64,000 bases of DNA from Spirochaetae bacterium HGW-Spirochaetae-1. Lineage in GTDB: Bacteria; Spirochaetota; UBA4802; UBA5550. Location of the stretch: the NCBI GenBank assembly GCA_002839375.1, contig PGXY01000008.1:1-64000 (forward strand), written 5' to 3'. A program made the translations under genes and the position numbers. The notes below the pieces were generated by a model. It was given only the letters and a program-made list of their open reading frames with translations, was not told the origin of the DNA and searched no databases. Shown one piece after another: positions 14,839 through 31,879 of the stretch (positions are counted from its first letter, which is position 1; each line of letters starts with the position of its first letter).

Positions 14839-15198
14839 TCAATGGCAGGCGAGGATTTTGTCGTGAATGAACTCCACCAGGTCATGTTCCATTTCACCGG
14901 CCGCTTCGAGAAATTTTTTTGCGATGATACCACCGTGGAACAGACCGTCCTTTGTCAGTATGGGGGTTTTCTTATGCCGTCCCGGGACTTCACCGTCATC
15001 AATATTGTCGTGGCTGTATCCCTTGTGCTTTTTCCAGGTCAGGACCTTTTCAATGCCTTCTTTGCCGTAGCATAGCTGGAATCCCTTCATGGTCTTATTG
15101 TCATCATACCAGACGATGAGATCGAAAAATTCATCACTGAACCATCGGCGGAATCCTTCTTCTTCTATCTGGCGTACGTGGGGTACTTCACGAAGCAT
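14839..15198 (-). CDS. Conserved-looking hypothetical protein
   Basis: 119 residues, soluble, with no signal peptide or membrane helix. Features are a WF-rich N-terminal half (FRRWFSDEFFDLIVWYDD), GFQLCYGKEGIEKVLTW, a histidine-bearing linker, and a helical C terminus ending in ILACH. I do not recognise the family. GGAG precedes the start by eight bases. It lies between argD and an envelope protein gene on the same strand and ends at a good terminator. No function can be assigned. Confidence 0.65.
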   Translation of the reverse strand: MLREVPHVRQIEEEGFRRWFSDEFFDLIVWYDDNKTMKGFQLCYGKEGIEKVLTWKKHKGYSHDNIDDGEVPGRHKKTPILTKDGLFHGGIIAKKFLEAAGEMEHDLVEFIHDKILACH

Positions 15199-15229
15199 AA
15201 CGGGTCTCCTGTTGTTGAGATGGTAAATT

Positions 15230-16306
15230 TTAAAGATGAAAATCGAAACCGGTCATAATGGATAAACCGTCAAAACCCTGGTCGGTATAGAATATTCTTC
15301 TATAGGAAACACCAAGGCGGAATACAAAGGGACTGAAGTCAAAATGCAGGGCGCAGGCGGCGTCGGTGGAAAAATTGACAGTCTTCACATCGGCAACAAT
15401 GGGGTCATCGGGGCCTCCCCCGCTGGGAAGAAAGAACCTGGTGCGTGTGAAAGCCGTGCCGGCTCCTGCAGTGAAAGCGAGTAATATATGGGACCGTACG
15501 GGATAAGTGTATTCGAAATCGATATATGTGTTCCAGACCTGCATGGTGGAATTGCTGGGGACATCCTTGTCCTCCGAATCGATGGAGAAAAATTCGGCGT
15601 TGAAAATGAAACCGGTTCCGGCCAGGAGCCTGTTCGAATCGTAACGGAGGTGAGGAGTTACAAACCAGGCATTGTTATAAATGTCGTGCCATGGACCGAC
15701 GATGAACATTCTTCCCGCGTTGACACCGAAGGAAAAAGGCGAGAATGTGTTGTACAGCGGAATGTACGGCGACGGCGTGAGCAGTTTGATGTTTTCTTTT
15801 TCAAAGAGTTCAATCTGTCTGCCCAGTTTCGTGGAAAAAAGATCCATGGAGTTTTGCATGAGAACGCCGGTCTCTATGGAATTGTCGGGGAAAACAGCAG
15901 ATTTGCCCGTGATGGTGTTATAGGCGATGACATCAATAAAGGTTTCATTTTCCCTGGTATGCATAAATCCGACGATGAAAAGGTCCGGAACGGGATATTT
16001 ATCCGACATGGAATCCATGAGCTTCAGAAGTTCTTCGGAGCCTTCCTTCTCCTGGGCTGCGTTCAGGGTTATTATTTCATCATTCTTTATTTCAATTATA
16101 TAGGATGTATTGTTTTGAAGGTACTTTTTCAGCGTTCGGGGGATGATGGACGAGTAATACTGAAAATCATTGTTTTCCATGCGGATATCGAATCCGAATA
16201 TGGTGATATTGGTTTTAATGGGCTCCTTTTTTTTTGATTCCGCTGCCGTGAGGGGAATGGCGATGATAAGGATTCCCGCTATTATGGAAACTGTAGCTGT
16301 TCTCAT
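15230..16306 (-). CDS. Secreted protein, probably an outer-membrane beta-barrel
   Basis: 358 residues with a signal peptide (MRTATVSIIAGILIIAIPLTA, cleaved near AAES). The first 160 residues look like a globular domain (FDIRMENNDFQYY, VPDLFIVGFMHTRENETF). The rest alternates hydrophobic and polar residues and ends with a phenylalanine-containing strand (MTGFDFHL), as in outer-membrane proteins. I do not know the family. It sits between argJ and a hypothetical gene on the same strand, with no metabolic link to arginine that I can see. Confidence 0.7.
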   Translation of the reverse strand: MRTATVSIIAGILIIAIPLTAAESKKKEPIKTNITIFGFDIRMENNDFQYYSSIIPRTLKKYLQNNTSYIIEIKNDEIITLNAAQEKEGSEELLKLMDSMSDKYPVPDLFIVGFMHTRENETFIDVIAYNTITGKSAVFPDNSIETGVLMQNSMDLFSTKLGRQIELFEKENIKLLTPSPYIPLYNTFSPFSFGVNAGRMFIVGPWHDIYNNAWFVTPHLRYDSNRLLAGTGFIFNAEFFSIDSEDKDVPSNSTMQVWNTYIDFEYTYPVRSHILLAFTAGAGTAFTRTRFFLPSGGGPDDPIVADVKTVNFSTDAACALHFDFSPFVFRLGVSYRRIFYTDQGFDGLSIMTGFDFHL

Positions 16307-16350
16307 ATACTATCGGTAAACCATCCCGGGCATTCTGTCAATATGAAAAT

Positions 16351-17541
16351 CTATGTTGTGTACTCGGCGTTGATTTTGACATAGTCGTAGGAGAAGTCAC
16401 AGGTCATCATCATGGCCCCTGCCGTTCCCATGCCCAGATCAATCATCACATCGAATTCACGGTTCTTCATGATATTTTTCAGGGTTTCGTGGTCAAAGGG
16501 GACGGGCGTACCGTTTTTAAGCAGTGTGATGTCGCCGAATGATATGGTCAGGGTTTCCTCGTGAACATCGGCGCCCGAGTAGCCCGCAGCGCAGGCAACG
16601 CGGCCCCAGTTGGGGTCCTGGCCGAAAAAAGCGGTTTTTACCAAGGCGGACTGAGCCACGGCCCGGGCGACACGCCATGCGTCGTCGTCATTTTGCGCGC
16701 CCGTAACCCTGACCCTTACCAGCTTTGTGGCGCCTTCGCCGTCGGTTACCAGCATGGCGGCAAGCTCCATCAGGACATGCTCCAGCGCCGCATAAAAGGA
16801 AGCAAGATCGCCGTCTTCTTTAAGGTGCTCGGCCCCTGCCGGTGACAATATCAGGGCCGTATCATTGGTGGACATGTCTCCGTCGATGGTTATGGCATTC
16901 AGGGTTTTTTTGACGGCCTTCCTGAAGAGTGCCGTCAGGTTTTCCGACGCTACCGGGGCATCGGTGATGATGAAGGCCAGCATGGTGGCCATGTTGGGAG
17001 CTATCATACCCGAACCCTTGGTGGTGCCGGCAATGGTGTATGTGCCTTTTGACGTCTCGAAGGAGACCGATATGCTTTTCGGGAAAGTATCCGTTGTCAT
17101 AATAGCTTTGGGGATAATTCCGCCGTTTTCCCGTGATAGCGAACCGGCCAGGTTTTCGTGGGCCGCCAGCATTTTTTCGACGGGGAGCTGGTGGCCGATA
17201 ATTCCCGTGGAGCACATGAGAAGCGACGAGGATTCCGTGCCGAGCTTCGCGGCCATGTCTTCGGTCAGCGTCAGGGCATTGCCGTATCCCTGGTTACCGG
17301 TACAGGCATTGGCGTTCGTGGCATTGATGAGTATGCCGCGTATTTTATTGCCGATCCTTTCCCTGCAGAGTTTTACCGGTGCGGCTGAAACCCGGTTGGT
17401 GGTAAAAAGTCCCGCGGCGTTGCACGGTATATCGGACACAATGAGGGCGTAATCGAGCCTTCCCTCATACCTGATATTGCATGATAAGGCTGAAAATTTG
17501 AATCCCGGTACATTTTCAAGGCCGCCCTGAAGCACTTTCAT
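16351..17541 (-). CDS. argJ: Bifunctional ornithine acetyltransferase / N-acetylglutamate synthase
   Basis: 396 residues. It moves the acetyl group from N-acetylornithine to glutamate, making the arginine pathway cyclic; some members also use acetyl-CoA. The autocleavage site with its nucleophile threonine is intact in GSGMIAPNMATML, where the protein self-cleaves into two chains before the threonine. TTDTFPK, DGDMSTNDT, GEGATKLV and DPNWGRV are further family marks. The start at 17541 gives the common beginning and faces the STAS gene promoter region. With argD, argF and argG it covers the later part of arginine synthesis; argB and argC are not in the window. Confidence 0.96.
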   Translation of the reverse strand: MKVLQGGLENVPGFKFSALSCNIRYEGRLDYALIVSDIPCNAAGLFTTNRVSAAPVKLCRERIGNKIRGILINATNANACTGNQGYGNALTLTEDMAAKLGTESSSLLMCSTGIIGHQLPVEKMLAAHENLAGSLSRENGGIIPKAIMTTDTFPKSISVSFETSKGTYTIAGTTKGSGMIAPNMATMLAFIITDAPVASENLTALFRKAVKKTLNAITIDGDMSTNDTALILSPAGAEHLKEDGDLASFYAALEHVLMELAAMLVTDGEGATKLVRVRVTGAQNDDDAWRVARAVAQSALVKTAFFGQDPNWGRVACAAGYSGADVHEETLTISFGDITLLKNGTPVPFDHETLKNIMKNREFDVMIDLGMGTAGAMMMTCDFSYDYVKINAEYTT

Positions 17542-17716
17542 ATGATTTCTCCACTATGGAATGAGGATAACACTGTAAAGAAATAGCATATGCAGTAATG
17601 TCAATGATTTATGCAATTATTATTTTATGGAATCAGGGAAAACATGGATAGATGTTTATCCCGCCGATGCATTTTAATTCATCTTATTGGTGATATATAT
17701 TTTTATAAAAATTGGT

Positions 17717-17745
17717 TTGATTTCATGATTATTCTTGATTATATG
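17717..17745 (+). promoter_or_regulatory. Candidate promoter of the second STAS gene
   Basis: TTGATT (17717-17722), 17 bases, TATATG (17740-17745), 23 bases before the ATG. The rest of 17542-17716 is A/T-rich without further signals I can support. Confidence 0.45.
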
Positions 17746-17768
17746 CATACATCGTGGTGAGATGAGTC

Positions 17769-18107
17769 ATGGAAATAACAGTCAGGGAAAAGGGGTCCGT
17801 GGTTATCATGGACCTGGTAGGGCATTTCACGATCTATGATATTACGGATATCGAGAATATCTGGAACGGGTATCTGAAGAAAAATATCATGGTAATGGCT
17901 TTGAACTGCCGGGAAATACAGTTTATTGATTCCTCGGCCATTGGGAGCCTGGTAAAGATGGTAAACCTGGTAACGGGTTTCGGTATTCAAGTCATTTTCT
18001 ATGACCTGGGTGAACCCGTTCAAAGAGTTTTTGCCGTGACCGGCCTCAACCGGATCCTCAATATAATGACCGCCGCTGCCTTTGAAGAGCGGTTTGCTGT
18101 CCGATAA
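17769..18107 (+). CDS. Second STAS-domain anti-sigma-factor antagonist-like protein
   Basis: 112 residues. The STAS loop is QFIDSSAIGSLVKM, with both serines kept and alanine in place of the usual glycine after them. It begins MEITVREKGSVVIMDLVGHF, a standard first strand. It probably works in the same partner-switching signalling as the STAS protein at 4326-4649, but no phosphatase or kinase gene is adjacent. An NlpC/P60 lipoprotein gene follows 51 bases downstream. Confidence 0.88.
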   Translation: MEITVREKGSVVIMDLVGHFTIYDITDIENIWNGYLKKNIMVMALNCREIQFIDSSAIGSLVKMVNLVTGFGIQVIFYDLGEPVQRVFAVTGLNRILNIMTAAAFEERFAVR

Positions 18108-18158
18108 ATTCATCGCCAACCGCTCAATTTCGCCCGATCCGGGGCCGATAACTGGTAT

Positions 18159-18650
18159 ATGAGGACCATTATTCTGTGCATGATTTTTTCCCTGGCTGCA
18201 GCGGGATGTTCATCGGGCGGATTTCTGTACCGTGACGGGTGGATGTTTTCCCGGCCCGGGAATATACGCAGTCATGTCCCGGCGCGGCGCAGCAATATCG
18301 TCGAAACGGCGAAGCAATACCTGGGAACTGACTATCTCTATGGAGGGGTAACCCCTAAAGGATTCGACTGTTCCGGTTTTGTCATGTACGTGTACCGGCA
18401 GAACCGCATCACGGTGCCCCGGTCCACGCGGGACCAGTTTGAGGCGGGAACAAGAGTGGCATTGCGCAGGGCCCGGCCCGGGGATCTCGTATTCTTCCAG
18501 ACATCGCGGAAAGGCATATCCCACGTGGGCATCTATCTGGGCAACTACCGGTTCATTCACGCTCCCAGTACGGGTAAAACCGTGAGTATTGCTGAAATTA
18601 AAAATCCCTACTGGCATAAACGCTTTCGGGGAGCCGTGACCTTCCTCTGA
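18159..18650 (+). CDS. NlpC/P60 family lipoprotein (peptidoglycan endopeptidase)
   Basis: 163 residues. The signal peptide ends in a lipobox (SLAAAGC), so Cys20 is probably lipidated. The catalytic domain has the cysteine in GFDCSGFVMYV, the first histidine in SHVGIYLG and the third polar residue around RFIHAPSTG. The family cuts gamma-D-glutamyl-diamino acid bonds in peptidoglycan stem peptides. It is the minimal form, without SH3 or LysM targeting domains. No clear ribosome site is seen, but the lipobox fixes the start well. Confidence 0.9.
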   Translation: MRTIILCMIFSLAAAGCSSGGFLYRDGWMFSRPGNIRSHVPARRSNIVETAKQYLGTDYLYGGVTPKGFDCSGFVMYVYRQNRITVPRSTRDQFEAGTRVALRRARPGDLVFFQTSRKGISHVGIYLGNYRFIHAPSTGKTVSIAEIKNPYWHKRFRGAVTFL

Positions 18651-18713
18651 CCCCGCCTGCCGATCGCCTGTTTCCGATAGATAAATATCCTGCTCAAAAA
18701 GAATAAAAATAGC

Positions 18714-18741
18714 TTGACTTTTACATTAACACTGTTATTCT
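18714..18741 (+). promoter_or_regulatory. Promoter of the TetR / glycyl radical enzyme operon
   Basis: TTGACT (18714-18719), 16 bases, TATTCT (18736-18741). Both the spacer and the -10 are covered by the operators at 18727-18751. Confidence 0.7.
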
Positions 18742-18751
18742 AACACTGTTA
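18727..18751 (+). promoter_or_regulatory. Paired TetR-type operators
   Basis: Two identical copies of the palindrome TAACACTGTTA lie at 18727-18737 and 18741-18751. They overlap the spacer, the -10 and the expected start of transcription. TetR-family repressors commonly bind such TAACA-n-TGTTA dyads. The divergently unopposed TetR gene starts 32 bases downstream, which points to autorepression of the whole operon. Confidence 0.75.
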
Positions 18752-18782
18752 ATTGATAAGAAAGCATAACATGGACTGAAAA

Positions 18783-19460
18783 ATGCCCAAATCACCGCGA
18801 TTACCCCACGAGATTGAAGCTGTCCGGGAAGAAATTCTCGATACGGCCCTGGAGCTCATTATCGAAGACGGCTTCAACAACCTGAGTATGCGCCGTATCG
18901 CCGCAAAGCTGGGCATCACGGCCACCACCATCTACAACTATGTGACGGGCAAGGATGAACTGAACCTCATGATCCGCATGCGGGGATTCGACATGCTTTA
19001 TGAACGGCTCGAGAAGGGGTACGGAAAACATGCCGGCCTGGTTGAACGGCTCGAGGCCATGATTCACGGGTATGTGGATTTCGGCATCACCTATCCCGCT
19101 TACTATGATATCATGTTCAATCTCACCACACCGAAATATACCGACTACATTGGGACCGATATGGAACCCATGGCGCTGCGTGAAAAAGAAACGGCCATGC
19201 GGTGTTTCGGGATTTTCAACAGGCTCTTGGGGGATTACGCCGCGGAAAACAATTTCGTCGTGGACGGGGACCTCATAGGGTATACCATCACAAAGATGTG
19301 GTCCGATCTTCACGGGATCATAAGCCTTTATAACAGCAGGGTGCTCTTCGAGGTGAATGAGGAGAGCAGGTCCGTGCTGGACCGGCGTGTGGAGGATATT
19401 ATTGCCGCCGCCGTATATCTAAAAGAAATCCTTGAATCGGCGGGAGCCGGTAATAAATAA
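18783..19460 (+). CDS. TetR-family transcriptional repressor
   Basis: 225 residues. The N-terminal helix-turn-helix is typical (EEILDTALELIIEDGF, then LSMRRIAAKLGITATTIYNY, then GKDELN). The C-terminal ligand domain is helical and contains YVDFGITYPAYYDIMF, a pattern frequent in TetR_C domains that bind hydrophobic ligands. It is the first gene of an operon with the glycyl radical enzyme (13-base gap) and the activase. It very likely represses its own promoter through the two operators just upstream and is released by the pathway substrate or a derivative. The ligand is unknown. Confidence 0.92.
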   Translation: MPKSPRLPHEIEAVREEILDTALELIIEDGFNNLSMRRIAAKLGITATTIYNYVTGKDELNLMIRMRGFDMLYERLEKGYGKHAGLVERLEAMIHGYVDFGITYPAYYDIMFNLTTPKYTDYIGTDMEPMALREKETAMRCFGIFNRLLGDYAAENNFVVDGDLIGYTITKMWSDLHGIISLYNSRVLFEVNEESRSVLDRRVEDIIAAAVYLKEILESAGAGNK

Positions 19461-19473
19461 GGGAGGCAACGGT

Positions 19474-22455
19474 ATGAACAGCGGCATGACAGGACGAAGC
19501 GCGGCAAGGGGAAAAGGGGGAACCAACGTGATGGTGCATCTGCTTTTAAAGCTCATGGCGGCCGTGTATAACCGCCGCGCATCGCTGAAGGAATATCTCC
19601 GCTGGGACGGGGGATGGATGAACTTTTCCATCGGTATCGAAACAGAAAAGGGAACGGTTCGGCAGGGCATCTCCTTCAGGGACGGCCGTGTCTCGGTTCA
19701 TCCCTTTGTGCCGGAAAAGGCCGACGCGGTCCTGGTTTTCATGGACGAGGCGGCGGTGCGGAAGATGGTGTCGAGTCCTCCCAATGAGCTGTTTAATCTT
19801 CTCATGAAAAACCGCATGGTTCCCCGTGGCAACCTGGCCCACCTGCAGCTTTTCAACTTTCTCCTGTCGGTCCTCTTGAAGAACAAACACATCAAGATAC
19901 TGCAGAAAGAATTGAAAAAAGAGAGGGCCGGCAAGAATGCCTCTTCCGGCCTTACCGTTCCGGTGAAGAGAGCGTCCTATCTTAAAGCATCCGTCAGGGA
20001 TAAGGGAGTGAAGTATCTCGATGATGCGTATCTCAGCGCCTACAGCCTCGATGATTTTCCGCGCCTGAAGGAATTTCTCGACATACACTTCACGGCGCGG
20101 CCCGCTCTCTGTCATGAACGGCCCCTGCTGCTTACGGAGTGGTACCGGGAGCATGGCTTTGAGGAAGATGTTCACGGCAATGCCTGGATTCCCGAAGTGC
20201 GCCAGGCCCGGGCCTACCGGCATCTCATGGAGAATAAGAAACCAATAATACGAAAGAATGATCTTGTGGCCGGCACCACCACCACGAAGGAAATCGGCGT
20301 TGTTCTCTATCCCGATTCTCACGGCACCATGATCTGGGGCGAGCTCTTCACAACACCCTACCGTTTTCTCAACCCCTACGATGTGGATCCCGAAACCGTG
20401 GAGGTGCTGCATAAAAAGGTATTTCCCTTCTGGTTTCACCGCAATATCCGGGAACTAGTCCGTGACACCGAGTCCTATCCCCTGTGCCAGCAGCTCGATG
20501 AGCGCTTTGCCGTCTACTTTCTCTGGAAGACCGTGGCCCTGTCCCACACCATCATTGATTATCCGAAAGTTCTGTCGCAGGGAACCGCGGGAATAATGAG
20601 GGAGATAGATGAAAACCTGGGGAAAACTTCCGGAAAGGACGCGGGGAAAAGGGCATTGCTTGAGGCCATGAAGGTATCGTTTCAGGGGATCAATGCCTAC
20701 GCTGCAAACCTGTGGAAACAGGCCGCCCTGGAGGCCGGAGCCGAAAAGGACCCCGTGAGGAAAAAGGAGCTGGCCCGTCTTGCCGCCATATGCCGCCGCG
20801 TACCCCGGTCCCCGGCCCGCACCCTTGATGAGGCCGTGAACGCCCTGTGGATCATTTGGGTGGGGATACACATGGAGAACACCAACGCGGGATTTTCCCT
20901 GGGACGCCTGGACCAGTGGCTTCAGCCCTATTTCGCCGCCGACATGGAAAAGCTCACCACGAAAAAGGCCCGGGAGGAATACACGCGCCATGCCATAGAA
21001 CTCATCGGCTGCCTGTACATGCGCTGCACCGATCATCTGCCACTGGTTCCCGATATCGGGAACTATCTTTTCGGGGGCAGTTCTTCCGACCAGGCCATCA
21101 CTCTGGGAGGGGTGACCCCGGACGGGAAGGATGCTGTGAACGACATGACCTACATTTTTCTTAAGGTGACGGAAATACTGAAGATCCGGGACCCCAATGT
21201 GAATGCCCGGTACCACCGGGGAATCAACAGCGAGGCTTACCTGCGGCGTCTCAGTGAGGTGAATCTCAATACCACGGCCACCCCGTCTATACATAACGAT
21301 GAAGCGGTCATGGCCTCGCTGGGTGAGTTCAATTACCCGGTGAAGCATCTCCGGGACTGGTCCGCCACGGGGTGCGTGGAGCCGACGCTTTCGGGCCGCC
21401 ACATGGGCCACACCAACTGCATGATGTTCAACATGGTGGCGGCCCTGGAAATGGCCATGAACAACGGCAGGCATCCCCTCATGCGCTGGAATGTGGGCCC
21501 CGAAACAGGGAGCGTAAATGCCGGTGATTTCGACACCTTTGAAAAATTTTACCGTGCCTTCTGCGCGCAGTTCGATTTTCTTGCCGGGCAGTCCTGTGCC
21601 TACAACAATATGCTGGGCCGGGCCCACCAGGTGATAAGGCCCACGCCTTTTATCTCGGGAATGATCGACGGCTGCATGAAGTCGGGAAGGGACGTGACCA
21701 AAGGAGGGGCCCGCTACAATTCATCGGGAACAGCCTGTATCGGCCTGGCCGACGTGACCGATTCCCTCATGGCCATAAAGAAACTGGTTTTCGAGGATAA
21801 GAAGATATCCTTCCCCGAAATGCTCCGCGCCGTGGAACGCAACTTCAGGGATGACGCGGCCCTTCTGGCGCTGATAAAAAACCGGGTGCCGCTCTTCGGT
21901 TCCGGCGATGCGGGGGCCCTTGCCATGGCAAACCGTGTGGTGAAATTTGCCCATGACTGTTTCGGGAAAAGGATCAATTACCGGGGAGGGAAATACACGG
22001 CCGGGTTCTGGTCCATGTCCAACCACGTTGCCTTCGGGACCCTCACGGGGGCGCTGCCGTCGGGACGGCTGGCCGGGAAGCCCTTTACGCCGGGACTTAC
22101 TCCCGAGGCCCACGCGTCGAAAAGCCTCCTGGACAACATCCGCGACGTGTCAATGCTTAAGGCTGAAAACATGAATAATAACATCGCCTTCAACGTGAAG
22201 GTGGTGCCGGCCCCCGGGGACAGCCACGAAGAGGCCGTGGAGCACATCCACTCCTACGCGAAAAGCTACATGGACCTGGGCGGCATGCAGATGCAGTTCA
22301 ACGTTGTCTCATCGGCGGTACTGCGCGACGCCATGGCCAACCCGGACCAGTACCGGGACCTCCTGGTGCGCATCTCGGGATACAATGCCTACTTCGTGAC
22401 CCTGAACCGGGATATGCAGATCGAGCTTATTGAAAGGGCCGAGTTCGGGGTATAG
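19474..22455 (+). CDS. Glycyl radical enzyme with an N-terminal SCP2-like domain
   Basis: 993 residues from the ATG at 19474, which has GGGAGG seven bases before it. Residues about 200-993 form a PFL-like glycyl radical enzyme. The thiyl cysteine is Cys634 in ATGCVEPT with Glu636 as the likely base, and the glycyl radical site is Gly969 in RISGYNAYF. The C-x-E arrangement is that of the dehydratase, lyase and decarboxylase branch, not of pyruvate formate-lyase (Cys-Cys). Residues about 20-140 are extra compared with the usual 780-850-residue enzymes. They look like an SCP2/sterol-carrier fold: WMNFSIGIETEKGTVRQGIS, FRDGRVSV, ADAVLVFMDEAAV and MVPRGNLAHLQ. That suggests a lipid-like or hydrophobic substrate, but I cannot name the reaction. 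The activase gene follows immediately. Confidence 0.9.
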   Translation: MNSGMTGRSAARGKGGTNVMVHLLLKLMAAVYNRRASLKEYLRWDGGWMNFSIGIETEKGTVRQGISFRDGRVSVHPFVPEKADAVLVFMDEAAVRKMVSSPPNELFNLLMKNRMVPRGNLAHLQLFNFLLSVLLKNKHIKILQKELKKERAGKNASSGLTVPVKRASYLKASVRDKGVKYLDDAYLSAYSLDDFPRLKEFLDIHFTARPALCHERPLLLTEWYREHGFEEDVHGNAWIPEVRQARAYRHLMENKKPIIRKNDLVAGTTTTKEIGVVLYPDSHGTMIWGELFTTPYRFLNPYDVDPETVEVLHKKVFPFWFHRNIRELVRDTESYPLCQQLDERFAVYFLWKTVALSHTIIDYPKVLSQGTAGIMREIDENLGKTSGKDAGKRALLEAMKVSFQGINAYAANLWKQAALEAGAEKDPVRKKELARLAAICRRVPRSPARTLDEAVNALWIIWVGIHMENTNAGFSLGRLDQWLQPYFAADMEKLTTKKAREEYTRHAIELIGCLYMRCTDHLPLVPDIGNYLFGGSSSDQAITLGGVTPDGKDAVNDMTYIFLKVTEILKIRDPNVNARYHRGINSEAYLRRLSEVNLNTTATPSIHNDEAVMASLGEFNYPVKHLRDWSATGCVEPTLSGRHMGHTNCMMFNMVAALEMAMNNGRHPLMRWNVGPETGSVNAGDFDTFEKFYRAFCAQFDFLAGQSCAYNNMLGRAHQVIRPTPFISGMIDGCMKSGRDVTKGGARYNSSGTACIGLADVTDSLMAIKKLVFEDKKISFPEMLRAVERNFRDDAALLALIKNRVPLFGSGDAGALAMANRVVKFAHDCFGKRINYRGGKYTAGFWSMSNHVAFGTLTGALPSGRLAGKPFTPGLTPEAHASKSLLDNIRDVSMLKAENMNNNIAFNVKVVPAPGDSHEEAVEHIHSYAKSYMDLGGMQMQFNVVSSAVLRDAMANPDQYRDLLVRISGYNAYFVTLNRDMQIELIERAEFGV

Positions 22456-22463
22456 GGGGAGTG

Positions 22464-23417
22464 ATGCAGCGGCTTAAGGGAAAAGTAAATGAAAAAGCAA
22501 CGGGAGTCCCCCTGATTCTTGAGATCAAGGGAAACAGCCTCGATGACGGTCCCGGTATCCGCTCTGTAATATTTTTCAAGGGATGCCCCCTGGACTGCGC
22601 CTGGTGTCATAATCCCGAGAGTAAAAAAAGAGGCGTCGAACTTTCTTTTGACGCAGGGCTCTGTATTGCCTGCGATGCCTGTATCGGTGCCTGTACCGAA
22701 AAGGCCCTTTCCCGCAGGGTAAAGGGCTTTGTAAAAAGGGACCGCTGCACCCTGTGCTTTCAGTGCACCGATGTGTGTCCCTCGGGCGCCCTGAGCCGCG
22801 TGGGCCGCGATATGACGGTTGATCAGGTCGTGGAAAAGGTGAAGCGGGACATTCCCTTTTATAACAGTTCGGGCGGCGGTGTGACCCTTTCGGGCGGTGA
22901 GCCCACGGTTTCCATGGAATATCTTTCCGGCATTGTCCGTGCCCTTAAAGCGGAGAAGATACACACACTTATAGAGACCTGCGGTCTTTTTGACATGAAA
23001 AGATTCAGCGAGATGGTCTATCCCCATATCGATTCGATTTATTTCGATATCAAGTTTATCGATGAGGCGCTGCACCGGAAATATTGCGGCACTTCAAATA
23101 AAATCATTCTGGAGAATTTCTCGAGGCTGCAGGATATGTTCCTGAAGGGGGGCATTTCCTTGCTGGCCAGGACGCCCCTCATACCGGGTATCACCGACAG
23201 TGATAAGAATCTTTCCGCCATTGCCGGTTTTCTCAGCGGCAGGGGCGTGCAGAAGGCGTCACTTCTCGCGTATAATCCCCTCTGGCATGAAAAGAACGGA
23301 AAGATCGGTGTGGAAAACCGCTACTCGAAAGAGAAGGCCATGAAGTCCTTCATGAAACAGGAAAGGATAGAGGAATGCTGGGATATTTTTCTTTCGGCAG
23401 GAATTGAGGTGGTGTAG
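22464..23417 (+). CDS. Glycyl radical enzyme activating enzyme (radical SAM)
   Basis: 317 residues. The radical SAM cluster motif is GCPLDCAWCHNPES (CxxxCxxC). It is followed by an inserted ferredoxin-like domain with two four-cysteine sets (CIACDACIGAC near residues 72-82; CTLCFQCTDVCP near 98-109), as in activases of the dehydratase/lyase class. GGGVTLSGGEPT, the SAM-binding GGE segment, is intact. It makes the glycyl radical on Gly969 of the upstream enzyme by cleaving S-adenosylmethionine. The start at 22464 is eight bases after the enzyme's stop, with a run of five G before it; a GTG three bases earlier is possible. It is the last gene of the TetR operon. Confidence 0.95.
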   Translation: MQRLKGKVNEKATGVPLILEIKGNSLDDGPGIRSVIFFKGCPLDCAWCHNPESKKRGVELSFDAGLCIACDACIGACTEKALSRRVKGFVKRDRCTLCFQCTDVCPSGALSRVGRDMTVDQVVEKVKRDIPFYNSSGGGVTLSGGEPTVSMEYLSGIVRALKAEKIHTLIETCGLFDMKRFSEMVYPHIDSIYFDIKFIDEALHRKYCGTSNKIILENFSRLQDMFLKGGISLLARTPLIPGITDSDKNLSAIAGFLSGRGVQKASLLAYNPLWHEKNGKIGVENRYSKEKAMKSFMKQERIEECWDIFLSAGIEVV

Positions 23418-23432
23418 GGGATAATTCCTGCC
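23396..23432 (+). terminator. Possible terminator hairpin over the activase stop codon
   Basis: GGCAGGAATT (23396-23405) is repeated inverted as AATTCCTGCC (23423-23432) with a 17-base loop that contains the stop codon. There is no strong U-run after it (GTTTTTCCTTT follows only 20 bases later). Confidence 0.3.
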
Positions 23433-23478
23433 AATCCTCACATGTTGAAATTGTTTTTCCTTTCCTGTCGTCTCCTGC

Positions 23479-25038
23479 TTATTGCGCCGGTGGATATCCG
23501 GTTATTGAGGCGATTTTCATATAGAGAGGCTCAAGTTTTTCGTATGTGGCAAGAAATACCTGACGGTAGAGATCATCATAGATACGGCGGTTTTTGGGAT
23601 CCGGTTCAAAGGTGTGGATTTTTTTTACCATTGACGATACCGCCTCATCGAAAGAAGAAAACATACCGCTCCCCACCGTGGCGCTCACCGCGGCTCCCAG
23701 TGAACCGATCTCCGAGGTTGCCATACGCGATACGGGCAGGTTGAATATATCGGCAGCGATCTGCACAGCCGCATCACTGCGGGAGCCTCCGCCGCCCACA
23801 CGAAGTTCTTTCAGGGTGATGCCCGTTTCGGCATTGATGATTTCGTACAGTCTGCGCAGTTCAAATCCCAGGCCTTCTAGAATGGCCCGGTAGATATGAG
23901 CCCGCGTATGCACATCGCCGAAGCCGATGATGGAACCCTTGGCGAATTTATTGTTTGACAGCGGGCCCCAGTGCGGCTGGAGCATGAGGCCCATGCTTCC
24001 GGGAGGGATTGATCTGATCACTTCATCGAGAACCACCTCGGGAGCTACTCCCCGCCTTTCCGCTTCAATTGATTCCCGGTGCCCCAATTCTTCCTTGAAC
24101 CAGGTAACCATCCAGAACCCGCGGTTGATATAGGTTTCTATATTCCATGTGCAGGGGATGGCGCCTGGCCAGGCAAAGAATCGCCATTGTTTGTCCGTGA
24201 CATATTTTTTTGTGATGACGTTAAGGGTTGTCAGGGTACCGAAGCTTATGACTCCCGTCTCGGAATTCAAGCCGCCTGCTCCAAGCAGCTCTGACTGCTT
24301 ATCCCCACCTCCTACAATAACGGGCAGTCCCTCGGGAAGCCCTGTTTCCCGTGACGCCGTTTTTGTTATGTATCCCAGAATTTCATCCTGATCGCAGAGC
24401 TCGGGCAAATGATCGGGTTTGAGACCGAAGATCTCGTATAAAAATTTATACGTATACCAGGCGAATTTTTTCAGGTCGATGGGCCAGAGTACATTGACCA
24501 TGCCGCGGGACTCTCTGAACTCACCTGTGAGCTTTTTTACGAACCATCCTGTGATCAGAAGAAATTTTGCCGTTTTTCGATAGATATCAGGTTCATTGCA
24601 CTTGATCCACAGATACTTGGAATTTTCGCGTACATACTTCATGAGCCCGGAAATTACCGGAAGGTTGAACACCGCACGTGCCCCCAGGGAGAGGGGAGGA
24701 GGATATTCCACCCTTCGCTGGTCAAGCCATACAATGGCGGGCCGGAGCGGAGTTCCTTCCCTGTCAACAGTGAGAAAGGTTGTGCGCTGGGAGGTTATTC
24801 CCATGGCCCCGATCTCTTCCCGGGGGACCTTCGCCTTTTTCATCATTGCCCGGGAAGCCTGGCAGAGCTTTGACCAGTAATCCGAAGGATTCTGTTCCGC
24901 CCATCCAGGATGAAGAGAGAAATAAGGCTCTATGGGCGCCTCTGCTGACGCCACTTCCTTCCCGGTACGGTCAAACATAATCGCACGAATGTTCTGTGTT
25001 CCTGAATCAATCGCTATCACATATTTCTTGTCAGCCAT
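23479..25038 (-). CDS. FGGY-family carbohydrate kinase
   Basis: 519 residues from the ATG at 25038, which has AAGGAGTT seven bases before it; the longer reading frame adds an unlikely N terminus. It has the sugar-kinase ATPase fold: IDSGTQNIRAIMFD at the start, ITSQRTT, the catalytic-loop region WLDQRR, GGGDKQSELLGAGG and a C-terminal GGGGSRSDAAVQIAADIF adenosine segment. The family phosphorylates polyols and sugars such as glycerol, xylulose and rhamnulose; the exact substrate is not clear. It is the last gene of an operon with GlpD-like and AGPS-like flavoproteins, so a glycerol-related substrate is a reasonable guess. Confidence 0.88.
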   Translation of the reverse strand: MADKKYVIAIDSGTQNIRAIMFDRTGKEVASAEAPIEPYFSLHPGWAEQNPSDYWSKLCQASRAMMKKAKVPREEIGAMGITSQRTTFLTVDREGTPLRPAIVWLDQRRVEYPPPLSLGARAVFNLPVISGLMKYVRENSKYLWIKCNEPDIYRKTAKFLLITGWFVKKLTGEFRESRGMVNVLWPIDLKKFAWYTYKFLYEIFGLKPDHLPELCDQDEILGYITKTASRETGLPEGLPVIVGGGDKQSELLGAGGLNSETGVISFGTLTTLNVITKKYVTDKQWRFFAWPGAIPCTWNIETYINRGFWMVTWFKEELGHRESIEAERRGVAPEVVLDEVIRSIPPGSMGLMLQPHWGPLSNNKFAKGSIIGFGDVHTRAHIYRAILEGLGFELRRLYEIINAETGITLKELRVGGGGSRSDAAVQIAADIFNLPVSRMATSEIGSLGAAVSATVGSGMFSSFDEAVSSMVKKIHTFEPDPKNRRIYDDLYRQVFLATYEKLEPLYMKIASITGYPPAQ

Positions 25039-25117
25039 TTTTAACTCCTTCAGACAGATCAAAGGCGCGCCGCAGCGGTCATCCACAATTCCTTAATTCA
25101 TTATTTTTCATGCCTTC

Positions 25118-26812
25118 TCATGTATCCGATGAATCCGTGCCCAGGGGATGGCCCGGATTCATGATATTGCCCGGATCAAAATAACGCTTCAGAGCCCTGA
25201 TGGCGCCCATCTCCTCCTTTCCGAGAAAACGTTCAATCCAGGGCGCCATAAGTCTGCCGACTCCGTGATGATGACTGCATGAACCGCCGGCATTGACCAT
25301 GGCCTCAATAAGGCCTGAGCGGTAGGCCATGTAGTCATCGACATTTCCCCTGACGCCGAAAATGAAATAGAGATTCGTACCGGACTGATAAAAGTGAGAG
25401 GCGTGGCTTATACACATGGTACCCGGAACAGAGTTGGCGTATTCGTAAACCTTTCTGTGTATTTCATGAATGTTGTCCCACCGCACCGGGGTCTCCACGG
25501 TGTCCAGAATAATATCATAATCGGTGACCGTTTCACCCATATAAAATGTCTTATAGCGGTCCTTGTACCATTCCTTCGCCGAGTATCCTGTCGTGGTCAT
25601 GCCCCCGAAGCGTCCCATGATTTTTCCAATTTTTCTGCGTACAAGCGCTGTGAAATCCCTGTCGCCTTCGATTGTACCAAGGCACAGGCACCGTTTGCCC
25701 GGCTTGAAGCCGCGCATTTTAAGAAAGCTTTCAATAATCGAGGGAACGGGATAGAGTTCAAAGGCATGCTCCGTCTCTTTCGCGTCGGATATGCGCAGGA
25801 CCGCCGGGAGCCCGAACTGCCCCTGGGTTATCTCCCGTGTGGCATTGACAGCTGATTCAAAATCAGGGAAGATGTAACCGAAATATTTCCTGTTTTCAGG
25901 CATGAACCGGAATATCTTGATTGTCAGCTCCACGCATACGCCGAAGACTCCTTCACTTCCTTTCATCATATTCATGACCCGGGGGCCGGTGGCCGTACTG
26001 GCATAATCGCTGGTGTTGATGACTCCCGCGGGGGTGATGATCTCCATGGCGAGCACCAGGTCCGCCGCGTCACCGTAATAGGTCGAGGCCTGGCCGCTTC
26101 CCAGGGCCATGGACCATCCAGCTACGCTGGAGAGTTCGAAGGACTGGGGAAAATGCCCGCAGGTAAAGGCATGGGCCGTGCCATACATTTTCGGCGCGTT
26201 ATTCAGGGCGTTCTCAAGATCAGGGCCCATGCATCCTGCCTGGACACGGCAGGTATGACTCTTCTCGTTCACTTCAAGAACCCTGTTTATATGGGTGTTC
26301 AGCACCAGGGTCACACCCCCTTTTTCAGGGAGAAATCCCTTGTTGCAGCTTGATCCGCCGCCGTAGACATAAACGGGAATGTCTCTCGTGTTGCACAGCG
26401 ATACGATCTCCTTAATCTCTTCCTTGTCACGCGGATGGACCACAACCCCGGCGGTTTCGTGGACAACGCCTCTCTTGAGACTGAACATCTCCTCCTGGAG
26501 CTTGCCATGGCTGTACTTGATTCGGTTGTATGCATCGCTCTGGACATTTTCAGAACCGGAAATTTTCACCAGGGCCTCAATAACATCCCCGGGGACATTG
26601 CTCTCTTTATCGAGACGCACGGCCATGTTTCCGTCATTGCGTTTTCCGGCGAAATAGGAATCTTCCAGCTTCAGTTCATTTTTCAGAAGCGCATAATACT
26701 TTTCCGAGGGCAGTTTTATTTCATCCATCCTGCCCTGTTTTGCGATGGACCGATAGGAGCCCGGCACGGGCGGCGTATTCGTCCATTCAGGAATAAATTT
26801 TTTTTCAGACAT
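25118..26812 (-). CDS. FAD-linked oxidase of the alkyl-DHAP synthase (AGPS) type
   Basis: 564 residues from the ATG at 26812 (AAAGGAGAACA before it). The PCMH/FAD_binding_4 domain starts GVVVHPRDKEEIKEIV and contains PVYVYGGGSSCNKGF. The C-terminal cap and FAD-linked domain end with GGSCSHHHGVGR, the three-histidine segment of alkyldihydroxyacetonephosphate synthases, then FDPGNIMNPGHPLG. NLYFIFG corresponds to the tyrosine segment of the AGPS active site. AGPS exchanges the acyl chain of acyl-DHAP for a fatty alcohol, the first ether-lipid step; related enzymes are simple hydroxyacid oxidases. Which one this is cannot be settled by eye. It lies between the GlpD-like and kinase genes with 33- and 79-base gaps. 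Confidence 0.85.
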   Translation of the reverse strand: MSEKKFIPEWTNTPPVPGSYRSIAKQGRMDEIKLPSEKYYALLKNELKLEDSYFAGKRNDGNMAVRLDKESNVPGDVIEALVKISGSENVQSDAYNRIKYSHGKLQEEMFSLKRGVVHETAGVVVHPRDKEEIKEIVSLCNTRDIPVYVYGGGSSCNKGFLPEKGGVTLVLNTHINRVLEVNEKSHTCRVQAGCMGPDLENALNNAPKMYGTAHAFTCGHFPQSFELSSVAGWSMALGSGQASTYYGDAADLVLAMEIITPAGVINTSDYASTATGPRVMNMMKGSEGVFGVCVELTIKIFRFMPENRKYFGYIFPDFESAVNATREITQGQFGLPAVLRISDAKETEHAFELYPVPSIIESFLKMRGFKPGKRCLCLGTIEGDRDFTALVRRKIGKIMGRFGGMTTTGYSAKEWYKDRYKTFYMGETVTDYDIILDTVETPVRWDNIHEIHRKVYEYANSVPGTMCISHASHFYQSGTNLYFIFGVRGNVDDYMAYRSGLIEAMVNAGGSCSHHHGVGRLMAPWIERFLGKEEMGAIRALKRYFDPGNIMNPGHPLGTDSSDT

Positions 26813-26845
26813 ATTGTTCTCCTTTATAATAATTTTCATTTGATT

Positions 26846-28489
26846 TCAGTCCCGCGGCAGTGTCAGCATCTCCGATACTATGGAAATCTCTTTTTCCATG
26901 TGTTTCCTGTCCCAGTTCAGCTCTCTCATTGCGATAAGGGCTAGCTTGAGAAGCACGTCATCGCCGGGATGCCCCAGGGTGCCCATACCAGTGCGGCGCA
27001 TGACAATATCCGACAAAGTGCGAGCCATTTCATTGCGGATGGCGTACACGGCCTGGGCGAGAATCTCACCGTCGGCGTTGACACTTTGTGATAGCGCCGT
27101 GTCCTCCCGCGCAACTTTAAGCACTTCCCTGTATTCTGTCCCATAATTGCGCGCAAGGTAATCCAGCGTGGGAACACTGAAATCGCTGTTATCGCGCAGG
27201 ACCTCTTCAAGAAAAGTTTCAATATCTTCAATGGAACACCCTGAGAGATAACGTTTTTTCGTAAATGAAGTAGAGCGGTTTCTTCCCAGTTTGCGTTCAA
27301 CGAGTTTTACACAATGTTCAGCAAGATTGCGGCTTGTAGTATACTTCCCGCCCTCTACGGTGACCAGTCCATCGATCCCGTCTTTCTTGTTGTCATATAT
27401 TTCATATTTTCGGGAAGAGCTGTAGGTCTCCTCGGTCTGGTCCTCCACAAGGGGGCGCAGTCCGCCATAGGTATGTTTTACATCGGAAAAACCGAGGCTG
27501 CCGTCACCGAAGGCGCTGTTCACATCGCTGATCAGTTCCATGATGCGCCCCCTGGTAACGTGATATTTGTCCGGGTCTCCCGTGTAGGGCTTGTCAGTGG
27601 TTCCGATAAGGGTATGCCCCCGCCAGGGGGTAAGGAAAAAATGACGGCCCGAAGGGGTCATGGCACCCACGGTATACTTGCCCGATATGAGCTTTTTGGT
27701 GGTGATGATATGAATTCCCTCGGATCTCTGGAGAGAAGTGACATTGCTTTTTGAATCAGCCATTCCCATAACAAAGTCGGCCCAGGGCCCGGCGCAATTG
27801 ATGGTAACGCCTCCTCTTATGGAGTATTTTTTATCGTTCAAGAGGTCTCGCACTCTTATTCCTATGATGTTTTTTCCCTTGCCGGAAAGGAAACCTTCCA
27901 CGGCGCAGTAATTGGATACGCTGGCTCCGTACGCCACGGCGGACTTTATGAACGCCAGGGTGAGTCTTTCGGGACATATGCTTTTACAGTCATAGTACAT
28001 TGATGCTCCGGTGAGTCCTTCCCGTCGCACACTGGGTTCGAGAACCTGCACTTTTTTTCTGGAGATGGTCCTGTGCATGGGAAGACGTTTGCTTCTATCC
28101 CAGGTGAAATTCTTGTCATAGGAGAGTAGATCATAGAGAGTCATCCCTATCTTTACGATCCATTTGCTGTTGTTGAGAGGTCTTTTGCAATGAGTGATCA
28201 TCACGGGCATAGGATAGACAAAGTTAGGAGCGATATTTTCCATCACCCTTCTCTCACGCAGGGACTCACGCACCAGTCCAATCTCCCCATTCGCCAGGTA
28301 CCGCAGACCGCCATGGATCATTTTTGATGTGGCCGCCGATGTGGCCCAGGAGAAATCCTTTTTTTCGAATAAGGCGACTTTCAGACCACGCGAGGCCGCT
28401 TCGTAAGCCACGGAAGCCCCGGTGATTCCGCCCCCGATGACAATCACATCGAAATTTTCATCTTTATAGGTTTCAATAAATCGTTTCAT
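26846..28489 (-). CDS. FAD-dependent glycerol-3-phosphate dehydrogenase (GlpD/GlpA-like)
   Basis: 547 residues. The Rossmann FAD motif is VIVIGGGITGASVAYEAASR, followed by SAATSKMIHGGLRYL, the usual GlpD segment, LTLAFIKSAVAYGA, TINCAGPWAD and PWRGHTLIGTTDKPY. A GlpD-type C-terminal domain is present. It oxidises glycerol-3-phosphate to DHAP at the membrane and passes electrons to quinones. It is the first gene of an operon running glpD-like, AGPS-like, FGGY kinase, and is read from the promoter at 28576-28604. AAGGCGG precedes the start. Confidence 0.92.
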   Translation of the reverse strand: MKRFIETYKDENFDVIVIGGGITGASVAYEAASRGLKVALFEKKDFSWATSAATSKMIHGGLRYLANGEIGLVRESLRERRVMENIAPNFVYPMPVMITHCKRPLNNSKWIVKIGMTLYDLLSYDKNFTWDRSKRLPMHRTISRKKVQVLEPSVRREGLTGASMYYDCKSICPERLTLAFIKSAVAYGASVSNYCAVEGFLSGKGKNIIGIRVRDLLNDKKYSIRGGVTINCAGPWADFVMGMADSKSNVTSLQRSEGIHIITTKKLISGKYTVGAMTPSGRHFFLTPWRGHTLIGTTDKPYTGDPDKYHVTRGRIMELISDVNSAFGDGSLGFSDVKHTYGGLRPLVEDQTEETYSSSRKYEIYDNKKDGIDGLVTVEGGKYTTSRNLAEHCVKLVERKLGRNRSTSFTKKRYLSGCSIEDIETFLEEVLRDNSDFSVPTLDYLARNYGTEYREVLKVAREDTALSQSVNADGEILAQAVYAIRNEMARTLSDIVMRRTGMGTLGHPGDDVLLKLALIAMRELNWDRKHMEKEISIVSEMLTLPRD

Positions 28490-28575
28490 GTCGTATCCGC
28501 CTTTTCATGAATTATCGGCCGATGCAAATGGCCGGCACTGAATGTTAACAGGTTTTCGCCCTGCATCTATCATGG

Positions 28576-28624
28576 ATTATAGGCGAAAAATATCCCCGTG
28601 TCGTTTATGATTATAATCATGAAC
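28576..28624 (-). promoter_or_regulatory. Promoter and palindromic operator of the GlpD-like operon
   Basis: On the minus strand the -35-like ACGACA (28604-28599) is followed after 17 bases by a perfect TATAAT (28581-28576). Overlapping the -35 and reaching to 28624 is a near-palindrome whose core is ATGATTATAATCAT (28607-28620). The same 26-bp block, 23 of 26 identical, lies in the same place at 30186-30211. A weak -35 overlapped by an operator suggests an activator. Confidence 0.7.
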
Positions 28625-28725
28625 CTATATTTCCCGGAATTATCAGAATTATTCGTTGAATCGGGAATATGCTCAAAGAAATATTTTCATGGCGCTCATC
28701 TACACAACGGCACTCACGGGAAAAC

Positions 28726-30024
28726 TCAGGTTAACGGAACAATGTTGGCCTTCGAGCCTTTCAGCTTTGCCTTGATCAGAAGATAGGCCGATGCAAGTAA
28801 GTTTGTCTTCGACATGCTTATGGGATTGACTTTCATTTGTTTACACAGCCCCGCAAGACTCAACGCCAGGTCATTGCAGCCCGGGCTTATGGTGATGTTC
28901 TTTTTCCCCAGGCGGGCCTGGAGGGCGACGGCATGGTCCTGGATGGCGCAGCTGCCTGCGATATGGACACGGCCCTTAGTGGCGTCCACGTCGTTTCGAG
29001 GAATGCCCTTTCCCATGAGCACGGTAAATCCGCCCCTGCCGTTATAGTCACGGTAGAGTGATTCCATGAGGCTCTCCGTGTTTCTTCGGCAGCCTTCGTC
29101 GCAGCATCGCTCCTTTCCCCTGAGAATGGTGACATCGGGAGGCAGGTCATTAAGAAGGTCGTAGCTGAGATGTTTTTTTCTTTCATTGAATAGGTTTTTG
29201 TTCACTATGTCGATGGCCTTTAAATCAGCTACACCCAGTCCCTTGGCACTGCTCTGAGCAAGATGCTTAACCTTTTTCAGGCTGAATCCCAGGAGTGCCG
29301 CGCCCACAACATCAACGGCAAGGGGATCGGGGCCGCCCAGGAGCAGGTCCATGGGAACAACGCATTTATCGAGATTGTAGGCCGTGGGATAGTGCCCATG
29401 GGTCGTGGCGATCAAACCGTCGATAAGGGCGAAGTCAGGGCGGATCACCTCGTATATATCGGCGAACTTCTGGTGCAGGCGGAAATTATGGTCGGGTATA
29501 CGGCTTTTCTGGTGAACCAGGCCGAACTGGTTTTTAATGGAGAGCGTGACCTGGGACATTGAATGTGTCTTGAGCTTTGGGATAGAAAGGTAGAAATTTT
29601 CCCCGCGATTCTCGATGAGCCTCTCATACACGAAGCGGGAAATATCGATGAATTCCTGGACACCGTTAAGAAAAACCGGGACTGCCTCGGTTTCGTCAAG
29701 AAAGACAGGCATCGCTCCGGTTTCTTTGCAGACCTTCGTATAGCCCGTAACATGAAAGACCAGGCGTGTGAAATTGGCCTGTGTGCTGTTTTCCATAACA
29801 TAAATCGTTCGCGCCCCGCATTCCCGGAAATAGAGTATGGTCTGTCTCAATACTTCCGGGTCCGTATACACGCTGGTTTCGGAACCCACACCGTTCACCT
29901 TGATGTAAACGTCCCGGCTCGAGCGCAGGAATTTCGCTCCGCCGCCGAAATGATCAAAGACTTCCCTTACGGCTCTGTCTATGCCTTTTTTAGTATCAGT
30001 AAGAATTACTTTTGTTTTTTTCAT
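28726..30024 (-). CDS. DUF362-domain protein
   Basis: 432 residues. The N-terminal two thirds match the DUF362 pattern: VYIKVNGVGSETSVYTDPE, then LRQTILYFRECGARTIYVME, then FYLSIPKLKTHSMSQVTLSI followed by KN and, further on, LIDGLIATTHGHYP. Unlike many members it lacks a clear ferredoxin domain, but the C-terminal part has a cysteine set CCDEGC and further single cysteines. DUF362 proteins are suspected iron-sulfur or redox proteins of unknown activity. It is monocistronic and shares its promoter architecture with the GlpD-like operon next door, so it probably belongs to the same regulon. Confidence 0.85.
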   Translation of the reverse strand: MKKTKVILTDTKKGIDRAVREVFDHFGGGAKFLRSSRDVYIKVNGVGSETSVYTDPEVLRQTILYFRECGARTIYVMENSTQANFTRLVFHVTGYTKVCKETGAMPVFLDETEAVPVFLNGVQEFIDISRFVYERLIENRGENFYLSIPKLKTHSMSQVTLSIKNQFGLVHQKSRIPDHNFRLHQKFADIYEVIRPDFALIDGLIATTHGHYPTAYNLDKCVVPMDLLLGGPDPLAVDVVGAALLGFSLKKVKHLAQSSAKGLGVADLKAIDIVNKNLFNERKKHLSYDLLNDLPPDVTILRGKERCCDEGCRRNTESLMESLYRDYNGRGGFTVLMGKGIPRNDVDATKGRVHIAGSCAIQDHAVALQARLGKKNITISPGCNDLALSLAGLCKQMKVNPISMSKTNLLASAYLLIKAKLKGSKANIVPLT

Positions 30025-30163
30025 GACTGTTTCTCCATGATTAATTCATCCGGGTTCATTTATTTAAACAGCACCTTGTAGAGTTCCAGGTAAGCAAAAT
30101 ATGCCGCTCCTCCTGCGTCATGCTTCCCATTCAAAAACCTCAATGCCATTATTTTATGACTTT

Positions 30164-30211
30164 ATTATAGAAAAAAAAGACCTGATGTCGTTCACAATTA
30201 TAATCATGAAC
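30164..30211 (-). promoter_or_regulatory. Promoter and operator of the DUF362 gene
   Basis: On the minus strand: ACGACA (30191-30186), 16 bases, perfect TATAAT (30169-30164). The operator block 30186-30211 repeats the one at 28599-28624 with three mismatches. It also lies 90 bases upstream of the plus-strand AraC promoter. Confidence 0.7.
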
Positions 30212-30298
30212 TGTTTTTATGTCTTTTTTCAGATTATCCCTGCCGCGCATGAGCCGCTCATAGGGGGATAAATATAACTCCCGTATGAAAAAATAACG

Positions 30299-30327
30299 TT
30301 GACTCGAACTGTGGGGTCTTTTATAAA
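30299..30327 (+). promoter_or_regulatory. Promoter of the AraC-family gene
   Basis: TTGACT (30299-30304), 17 bases, TATAAA (30322-30327). It supports the translation start at 30401 over an earlier in-frame codon at 30299. Confidence 0.65.
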
Positions 30328-30400
30328 AAAGTTGCTGAGTCCATCCTGTCACAGCATATGTAATTATCATATATTCAGGGATAACGAAAGGGAATCTCTC

Positions 30401-31504: not shown

Positions 31505-31519
31505 AAATTCCTGAAAGAA

Positions 31520-31768
31520 TTACCCCTCCATGAGATATTTCGCGTTGGGCACCACTTCCAGTATTTCGCTCTCGCATACAATCACGGGAACACCCCGGTG
31601 ATTGAACCTGTACTTTTTGGCATCGTTGAGTTCAATGAGTCCCTCACGAGTCATTTCCATGAGCCATTCCATGCAGAGGTTTCGTCCCATGATGACGTAT
31701 TCGGGCTTCTGCTTCCGTTTCTTCAGTTCTTCCATGAGTTTGTCGATGTGTGCTGATATTTTTTTCAT
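31520..31768 (-). CDS. 82-residue hypothetical protein, copy B of a duplicated pair
   Basis: 82 residues, soluble and highly charged at the N terminus. The middle reads KPEYVIMGRNLCMEWLMEM, then the end VPVIVCESEILEVVP. It is 70 of 82 residues identical to the protein at 32772-33020, with the metallo-hydrolase gene between them. I do not recognise the family. No Shine-Dalgarno sequence is visible, but the conservation of the pair down to the last residue supports a real gene. Confidence 0.75.
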   Translation of the reverse strand: MKKISAHIDKLMEELKKRKQKPEYVIMGRNLCMEWLMEMTREGLIELNDAKKYRFNHRGVPVIVCESEILEVVPNAKYLMEG

Positions 31769-31879
31769 GACTTGAGCATGGGAGTTTCCCGGGTAAAGTC
31801 AAGCATTTAAGGATTTTTCGCCATTGAATTTACTGGACTTTTTGATACCTGGCATCGGTTGTCGGGAGACTGATTTCAC

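Follow-up and report, generated by a model that had tools for sequence, protein, structure and literature searches.

To our knowledge, the characterised glycyl radical enzymes (GREs) act mostly on small, water-soluble molecules, and the known exceptions add fumarate to hydrocarbons. GRE 1,2-eliminases that act on a C1-OH with a leaving group at C2 yield aldehydes (PMC6453916), and an SCP2-like domain is present in the SdsA1/SdsAP alkylsulfatases, enzymes with alkyl-chain substrates (PMC5426288). A literature search that left most subscription journals and preprints outside found no publication linking a GRE with SCP2, and searches on GRE with ether lipids or AFOR with Smithella returned nothing relevant. 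Here we describe the SCP2-GREs, a new, well-delimited and uncharacterised GRE subfamily, based on a gene in a 64,000-nucleotide stretch of spirochaete DNA (the window; Table 1).

Table 1 Features of the SCP2-GRE locus in the window.
Feature	Position	Strand	Basis
SCP2-GRE gene	19474..22455	+	open frame, 993 aa; AlphaFold; closest PDB folds
SCP2 domain, about residues 16-155	19519..19938	+	Pfam, profile comparison, AlphaFold/Foldseek
Glycyl radical enzyme core, about residues 196-993	20059..22452	+	domain scan, AlphaFold, PDB folds
Cys634-Val635-Glu636, thiyl cysteine and catalytic glutamate	21373..21381	+	sequence, alignment
Gly969, glycyl radical site	22378..22380	+	sequence, alignment
Radical SAM GRE-activating enzyme	22461..23417	+	TIGR02494, 279.9 bits (cut-off 174.35)
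Shine-Dalgarno AAGGGAGG of the GRE gene	19459..19466	+	sequence
TetR-family regulator (TetR_N + TetR_C_33)	18783..19460	+	Pfam domains; linked in 26 loci
TetR operator, palindrome TTAACACTGTTATTCTAACACTGTTAA	18726..18752	.	unique in the window; conserved upstream of linked tetR genes
Putative sigma-70-like promoter TTGACT-16-TATTCT, overlapping the operator	18714..18741	+	consensus scan, score alone not above chance

The first-pass annotation of the window had described an operon with its own TetR repressor and activase, and domain and NCBIfam matches bore out both. The ribosome-binding motif of the GRE gene lies right at the tetR stop, ahead of the GRE ATG, and the activase starts 5 bp past the GRE stop codon. 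The activase clears the general TIGR02494 cut-off and reached no substrate-specific activase cut-off in the NCBIfam comparison. An Rfam scan of positions 15000-32000 found no RNA elements. In another locus of the same genome, a 1114-aa ORF (L076:7123-10467, + strand, G000:C1) encodes both a radical SAM activase (CxxxCxxC, Pfam Radical_SAM) and a complete GRE (GCVEP, RVAGY), and nothing was found in the literature on such a single-chain fusion. An ORF at L058:14209-17535 is 64% identical to it, and genomes G117, G216 and G102 gave matches to long GRE frames, 1117-1217 aa in length.

The Pfam domains PFL-like (E 2e-169) and Gly_radical (E 3e-22) span only residues 207-975 of the window protein; therefore about 190 N-terminal residues are extra, as had been noted. 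For the SCP2-like fold that the first-pass annotation had proposed there, neither a Pfam scan of the window protein alone (PF02036) nor phmmer with its N-terminus gave an SCP2 match, and family profiles were therefore needed. PF02036 was found in 13 of the 38 family N-termini (best E 2.3e-5), matches that were not each compared with the curated cut-off, and a paralogue in the same genome (G000:C6) scored 26.3 bits against a curated cut-off of 21.3. With an N-terminal profile, the top three PDB chains were all SCP-2, weakly matched at E about 0.05. Comparison of the family N-terminus with an SCP2 alignment assembled from further proteins that this genome encodes gave E 1.1e-5 and a probability of 81.5 in hhalign, whereas all controls, six with shuffled columns and four taken from the GRE core, had E ≥ 0.14. 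The AlphaFold model of the family alignment showed the alpha-beta order of SCP2, with a pLDDT of 82 overall and mostly > 90 in the SCP2 region. All 25 Foldseek matches of this model in the PDB at E ≤ 0.001 were SCP2-fold proteins, among them UbiJ, SCP-2 of animals, yeast and archaea, and SdsA1-type alkylsulfatases. Hence, the N-terminal extension is an SCP2 domain, confirmed at family level, and the window protein's own copy is too divergent for a single-sequence Pfam match.

Further SCP2 domains were seen in other frames of the window genome. A 911-aa frame (L070:1471-3267, G000:C10) contains one (30.4 bits) and continues into an apparent E1 alpha chain of the pyruvate/acetoin-dehydrogenase type. 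Three SCP2 repeats lie in a 524-aa frame about 14 kb past the window (G000:C8:77839-78798), and two in a 408-aa frame on contig C4 of the window genome.

A search for relatives returned 55 loci, 35–78% identical, with the extension visible wherever the frame was complete. The hosts were Smithella, Syntrophaceae, Desulfobacterales, Myxococcota, Spirochaetes, Lachnospiraceae, Mogibacterium, Tepidimicrobium and Bacteroidales. About 20 further loci were found in a 247-genome sample of the window's phylum, and the window genome itself has three copies. The whole clade exceeds 60 proteins, 35–77% identical, from Spirochaetota, Desulfobacterota/Myxococcota, Bacillota, Bacteroidota and possibly Lokiarchaeota, where the N-terminus of the copy (L052) is lost at a contig end. 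In a tree of GRE cores, made with a quick method and containing long branches, the SCP2 proteins form one group (SH-aLRT 100) separate from the glycerol/propanediol dehydratase, PFL2, CutC and HypD references. The only members inside or beside this group without a visible domain were L098 and L052, both cut by contig ends. L098 was considered as an SCP2-less sister and rejected as unusable, its ORF being open at the locus start. The fusion is ancient and no one-off. Two single observations were also made: an Oscillospiraceae MAG has its SCP2-GRE split in two frames (L058:7914-10921), by gene disruption or assembly error, and a goat-gut Mogibacterium MAG has, some 5 kb downstream of its SCP2-GRE, a true HypD with an adjoining activase-like gene (L038:15283-18569; 1432 bits, cut-off 1100).

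The NCBIfam scores agreed with the tree in giving no clustering with a characterised group. The window protein scored well below half of every specific GRE eliminase or decarboxylase equivalog cut-off, with 378 bits for CutC (TIGR04394, cut-off 1050), 396.6 bits for trans-4-hydroxyproline dehydratase HypD (NF043068, cut-off 1100), and 205.8 and 252.6 bits for 4-hydroxyphenylacetate and indoleacetate decarboxylases (NF033715 and NF033718, cut-offs 1150 and 1100). Assignment of the C-x-E arrangement to the eliminating and decarboxylating branch, as made from the sequence earlier, was judged sound. C-x-E is also found in decarboxylases, and Smithella-type hosts live in hydrocarbon-rich settings; both points would fit an enzyme that decarboxylates or adds fumarate (HPAD or alkylsuccinate synthase type) and has hydrophobic acids or hydrocarbons as its substrates. 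We regard this as extremely unlikely, given the distance from the HPAD and IAD cut-offs, BSS and MAS bit scores far lower than those of the eliminases, and annotated neighbours that include no benzylsuccinate/alkylsuccinate synthase small-subunit genes. Moreover, the products of such enzymes need no aldehyde enzymes, and the gene neighbourhood described below favours elimination over decarboxylation.

The catalytic core is complete. The full-length AlphaFold model (pLDDT 88.9, pTM 0.90) and the sequence together display the Gly radical motif, Cys loop and barrel fold of the GRE superfamily, and a cognate radical SAM activase is encoded alongside. The Cys634-x-Glu636 pair and Gly969, reported as intact from the sequence, lie in GCVEP and RISGY motifs that are invariant or nearly so in 37 aligned relatives. 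Among PDB folds, glycerol and propanediol dehydratases are closest. In the alignment, His164, Cys433 and Glu435 of glycerol dehydratase (GDH) are kept as His358, Cys634 and Glu636. GDH His281, Ser282 and Asp447, which we take to be the contacts of the glycerol hydroxyls, are replaced by Ala472, Gly473 and Asn648, residues shared by most of the clade. This replacement suggests a roomier, less polar pocket. Judged from the alignment, the catalytic part is a predicted diol-type eliminase from which the small-polar-diol pocket is absent. A divergent C6-type subgroup (L003, L061) has Glu or Pro at the His358 position; therefore the family is not uniform, and this subgroup probably uses another substrate. 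A divergent subgroup was likewise noted for G000:C6:96592-99534 (L074) and L115, with Glu for His358 in L074 and another substrate probable.

SCP2-fold domains can also act in membrane docking, and the closest SCP2 structure, UbiJ, is an accessory lipid-binding protein and not an enzyme. The domain could be a mere membrane anchor or oligomerisation module on a diol dehydratase whose substrate is small and polar, as the closest structures of the core would suggest. We consider this unlikely, since the diol-holding residues of GDH are not kept and no microcompartment genes were seen among the annotated neighbours.

The operator of the TetR regulator, a 25-bp palindrome, occurs once in the window, with 0 copies expected by chance. 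Sites agreeing at ≥ 16 of the 20 defined positions were present upstream of 32 of the 35 linked tetR genes in several phyla, mostly 35–60 bp before the start; among 30 shuffles made for each site, the best agreed at 11–16. In genomes of the order, 12 of 46 contained the doubled site, every listed site lay at an SCP2-GRE locus, and reversed-pattern controls gave no sites. The window genome has exactly two sites, both before SCP2-GRE genes. The second is about 20 bp upstream of the 56%-identical GRE copy on contig C2 (G000:C2:501713-504685; L002, L073), which has neither tetR nor activase beside it. The TetR thus appears dedicated to SCP2-GRE, and one activase may serve two GREs.

Enzymes of aldehyde and alcohol metabolism recurred next to the GRE genes. 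Sixteen AFOR genes were found in the 1.19 Mb of 77 loci, none more than 6.2 kb from the GRE, and 15 of them no further away than about 3.5 kb. They were placed divergently upstream (L012-L022, L017, L049), directly downstream (L028; L033 and L036, with an 18-base overlap between the AFOR match and the GRE end in L033), further downstream (L041, L051), or in the order GRE-activase-amidohydrolase-AFOR (L074, L115), which amounts to about six separate arrangements. Some linked AFORs are only about 28–30% identical to reference AFORs; the best match of the L014 copy is a true aldehyde:ferredoxin oxidoreductase (1aor, E 2e-100). The 5.2-Mb window genome contains 7 copies of AFOR, which makes chance adjacency of GRE and AFOR unlikely. 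Downstream SDR genes were present in 16 loci, at 35 and 12 bp from the preceding gene in L007; the SDR partner is a pair in some lineages and a fused double SDR in others. Other neighbours were a Zn-ADH (L110), two Fe-ADH adjoining the AFOR (L041) and an AKR-ferredoxin (aldo-keto reductase; L034 and L038). Since different enzymes for one kind of compound were repeatedly recruited, an aldehyde/alcohol intermediate is argued for. Several loci, the window included, are without a directly adjacent aldehyde enzyme. The neighbours of rumen copies (including L055, L059 and L047) gave no functional clue, and GlpK, MlaE, Maf, EEP, acyl-CoA ligase and ACD in L012-L022 were set aside as lineage synteny.

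Some of these neighbourhoods can also be read as pointing to cleavage of a C-N bond, in which a CutC-like ammonia or amine lyase would convert a sphingoid base or long-chain 2-amino alcohol to a 3-hydroxy aldehyde. An amidohydrolase precedes AFOR in the C6-type operons L074 and L115, and a fatty acyl-CoA ligase and an Exo_endo_phos gene (sphingomyelinase superfamily) occur near AFOR-type loci, although the latter two may be plain synteny of one lineage. The position of the CutC Asp is His358 in SCP2-GRE, and we hold this version to be very unlikely.

Further downstream, the minus strand of the window (23479-30024) encodes a DUF362 protein, a G3P-dehydrogenase-like (G3PDH) flavoprotein, a homologue of alkyl-DHAP synthase (AGPS; PDB 4bby, E 1e-61) and an FGGY kinase, genes that are 77–91% conserved in L127-L129. 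The convergent operon formed by the last three (23479-28489) raises glycerol ether lipids (alkylglycerols or archaeal-type diethers) as substrates, of which the OH or OR next to CH2OH would be eliminated, yielding either an alkoxy-propanal or a fatty alcohol and a C3 aldehyde. In G198 (L120), GRE-activase is followed on the same strand by an FGGY kinase and by a G3PDH of 56% identity, but the two kinases are only 27% identical. The AGPS-G3PDH pair of the window is the second in its genome, the other being on contig C4. In L127-L129, the operon stands with no GRE in view (contigs end nearby). Because the TetR operator is absent upstream of this operon and most SCP2-GRE loci are without kinase, AGPS or G3PDH genes, the ether-lipid link was kept as a rival only, and a distinctly unlikely one.

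The best reading of these data, to which we give an even chance, is that SCP2-GRE is an SCP2-fed radical eliminase that converts a hydrophobic alcohol to an aldehyde. The activase would place the radical on Gly969, as is established GRE chemistry, and the radical would move to Cys634, which would abstract hydrogen from the carbinol carbon of the alcohol. Glu636 would take the hydroxyl proton and, with the help of His358, the neighbouring carbon would lose its leaving group (OH, OR or NR), forming the aldehyde. The SCP2 domain would hold the alkyl part of the substrate and deliver it to the barrel out of a membrane or micelle. Depending on lineage, a tungsten AFOR would then oxidise the aldehyde to the carboxylate, or SDR, ADH or AKR would interconvert aldehyde and alcohol. 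The TetR would repress the genes through its palindrome, presumably until the substrate, or a lipid related to it, causes release. We infer the elimination, the aldehyde product, the lipid substrate and the delivery role of SCP2 from the combined evidence. Of the original proposal of new radical chemistry on a hydrophobic substrate, the SCP2 identity held, and the remainder is plausible, with support from neighbours that handle aldehydes and from the lost polar contacts. Instead of new radical chemistry, the enzyme may carry out a conventional GRE 1,2-elimination on a substrate that is unusual.

A bolder claim, which we consider rather unlikely, is that SCP2-GREs are the first GREs on membrane-type lipids, with radical cleavage of C-O bonds (alkylglycerol or archaeal ether lipids) or C-N bonds (sphingoid bases). 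If true, anaerobes would gain an oxygen-free route to break lipase-resistant lipids. The subfamily as such, with its lipid-binding-type domain, its own repressor and operator, and recurrent aldehyde-processing partners, suggests that sediments, digesters and the rumen host an anaerobic route for hydrophobic alcohols that is still missing from the known pathways. With family, operator and partner genes in hand, the question is testable with one purified enzyme-activase pair.

Compared with known systems, SCP2-GRE is closest in fold to the B12-independent glycerol and 1,2-propanediol dehydratases (PDB 1r8w, 5i2g, 9rco; TM to target 0.90–0.94, 27–29% identity). It shares their catalytic His, Cys and Glu, but adds SCP2, replaces the three diol contacts and falls in a separate clade, the three reference dehydratases grouping together apart from it. 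The best phmmer match, Archaeoglobus PFL2 (PDB 2f3o, 378 bits), is a GRE core alone, without SCP2 domain and with different pocket residues. The statement that GREs normally have about 760-860 residues and no such extension needs correction, as the long form of CutC (choline TMA-lyase, PDB 9f3w, 1150 aa) has an N-terminal extension together with GCVEP and an activase, as SCP2-GRE does; the CutC extension is partly made of GRE-like pieces and unrelated to SCP2. The closest SCP2 fold, UbiJ (PDB 6h6p, E 3e-5), is unfused to an enzyme. The alkylsulfatases SdsA1, SdsAP and Pisa1, like SCP2-GRE, have an SCP2-like domain fused to a catalytic domain, but there the domain is C-terminal, the catalytic domain is a metallo-beta-lactamase and the reaction is hydrolysis.
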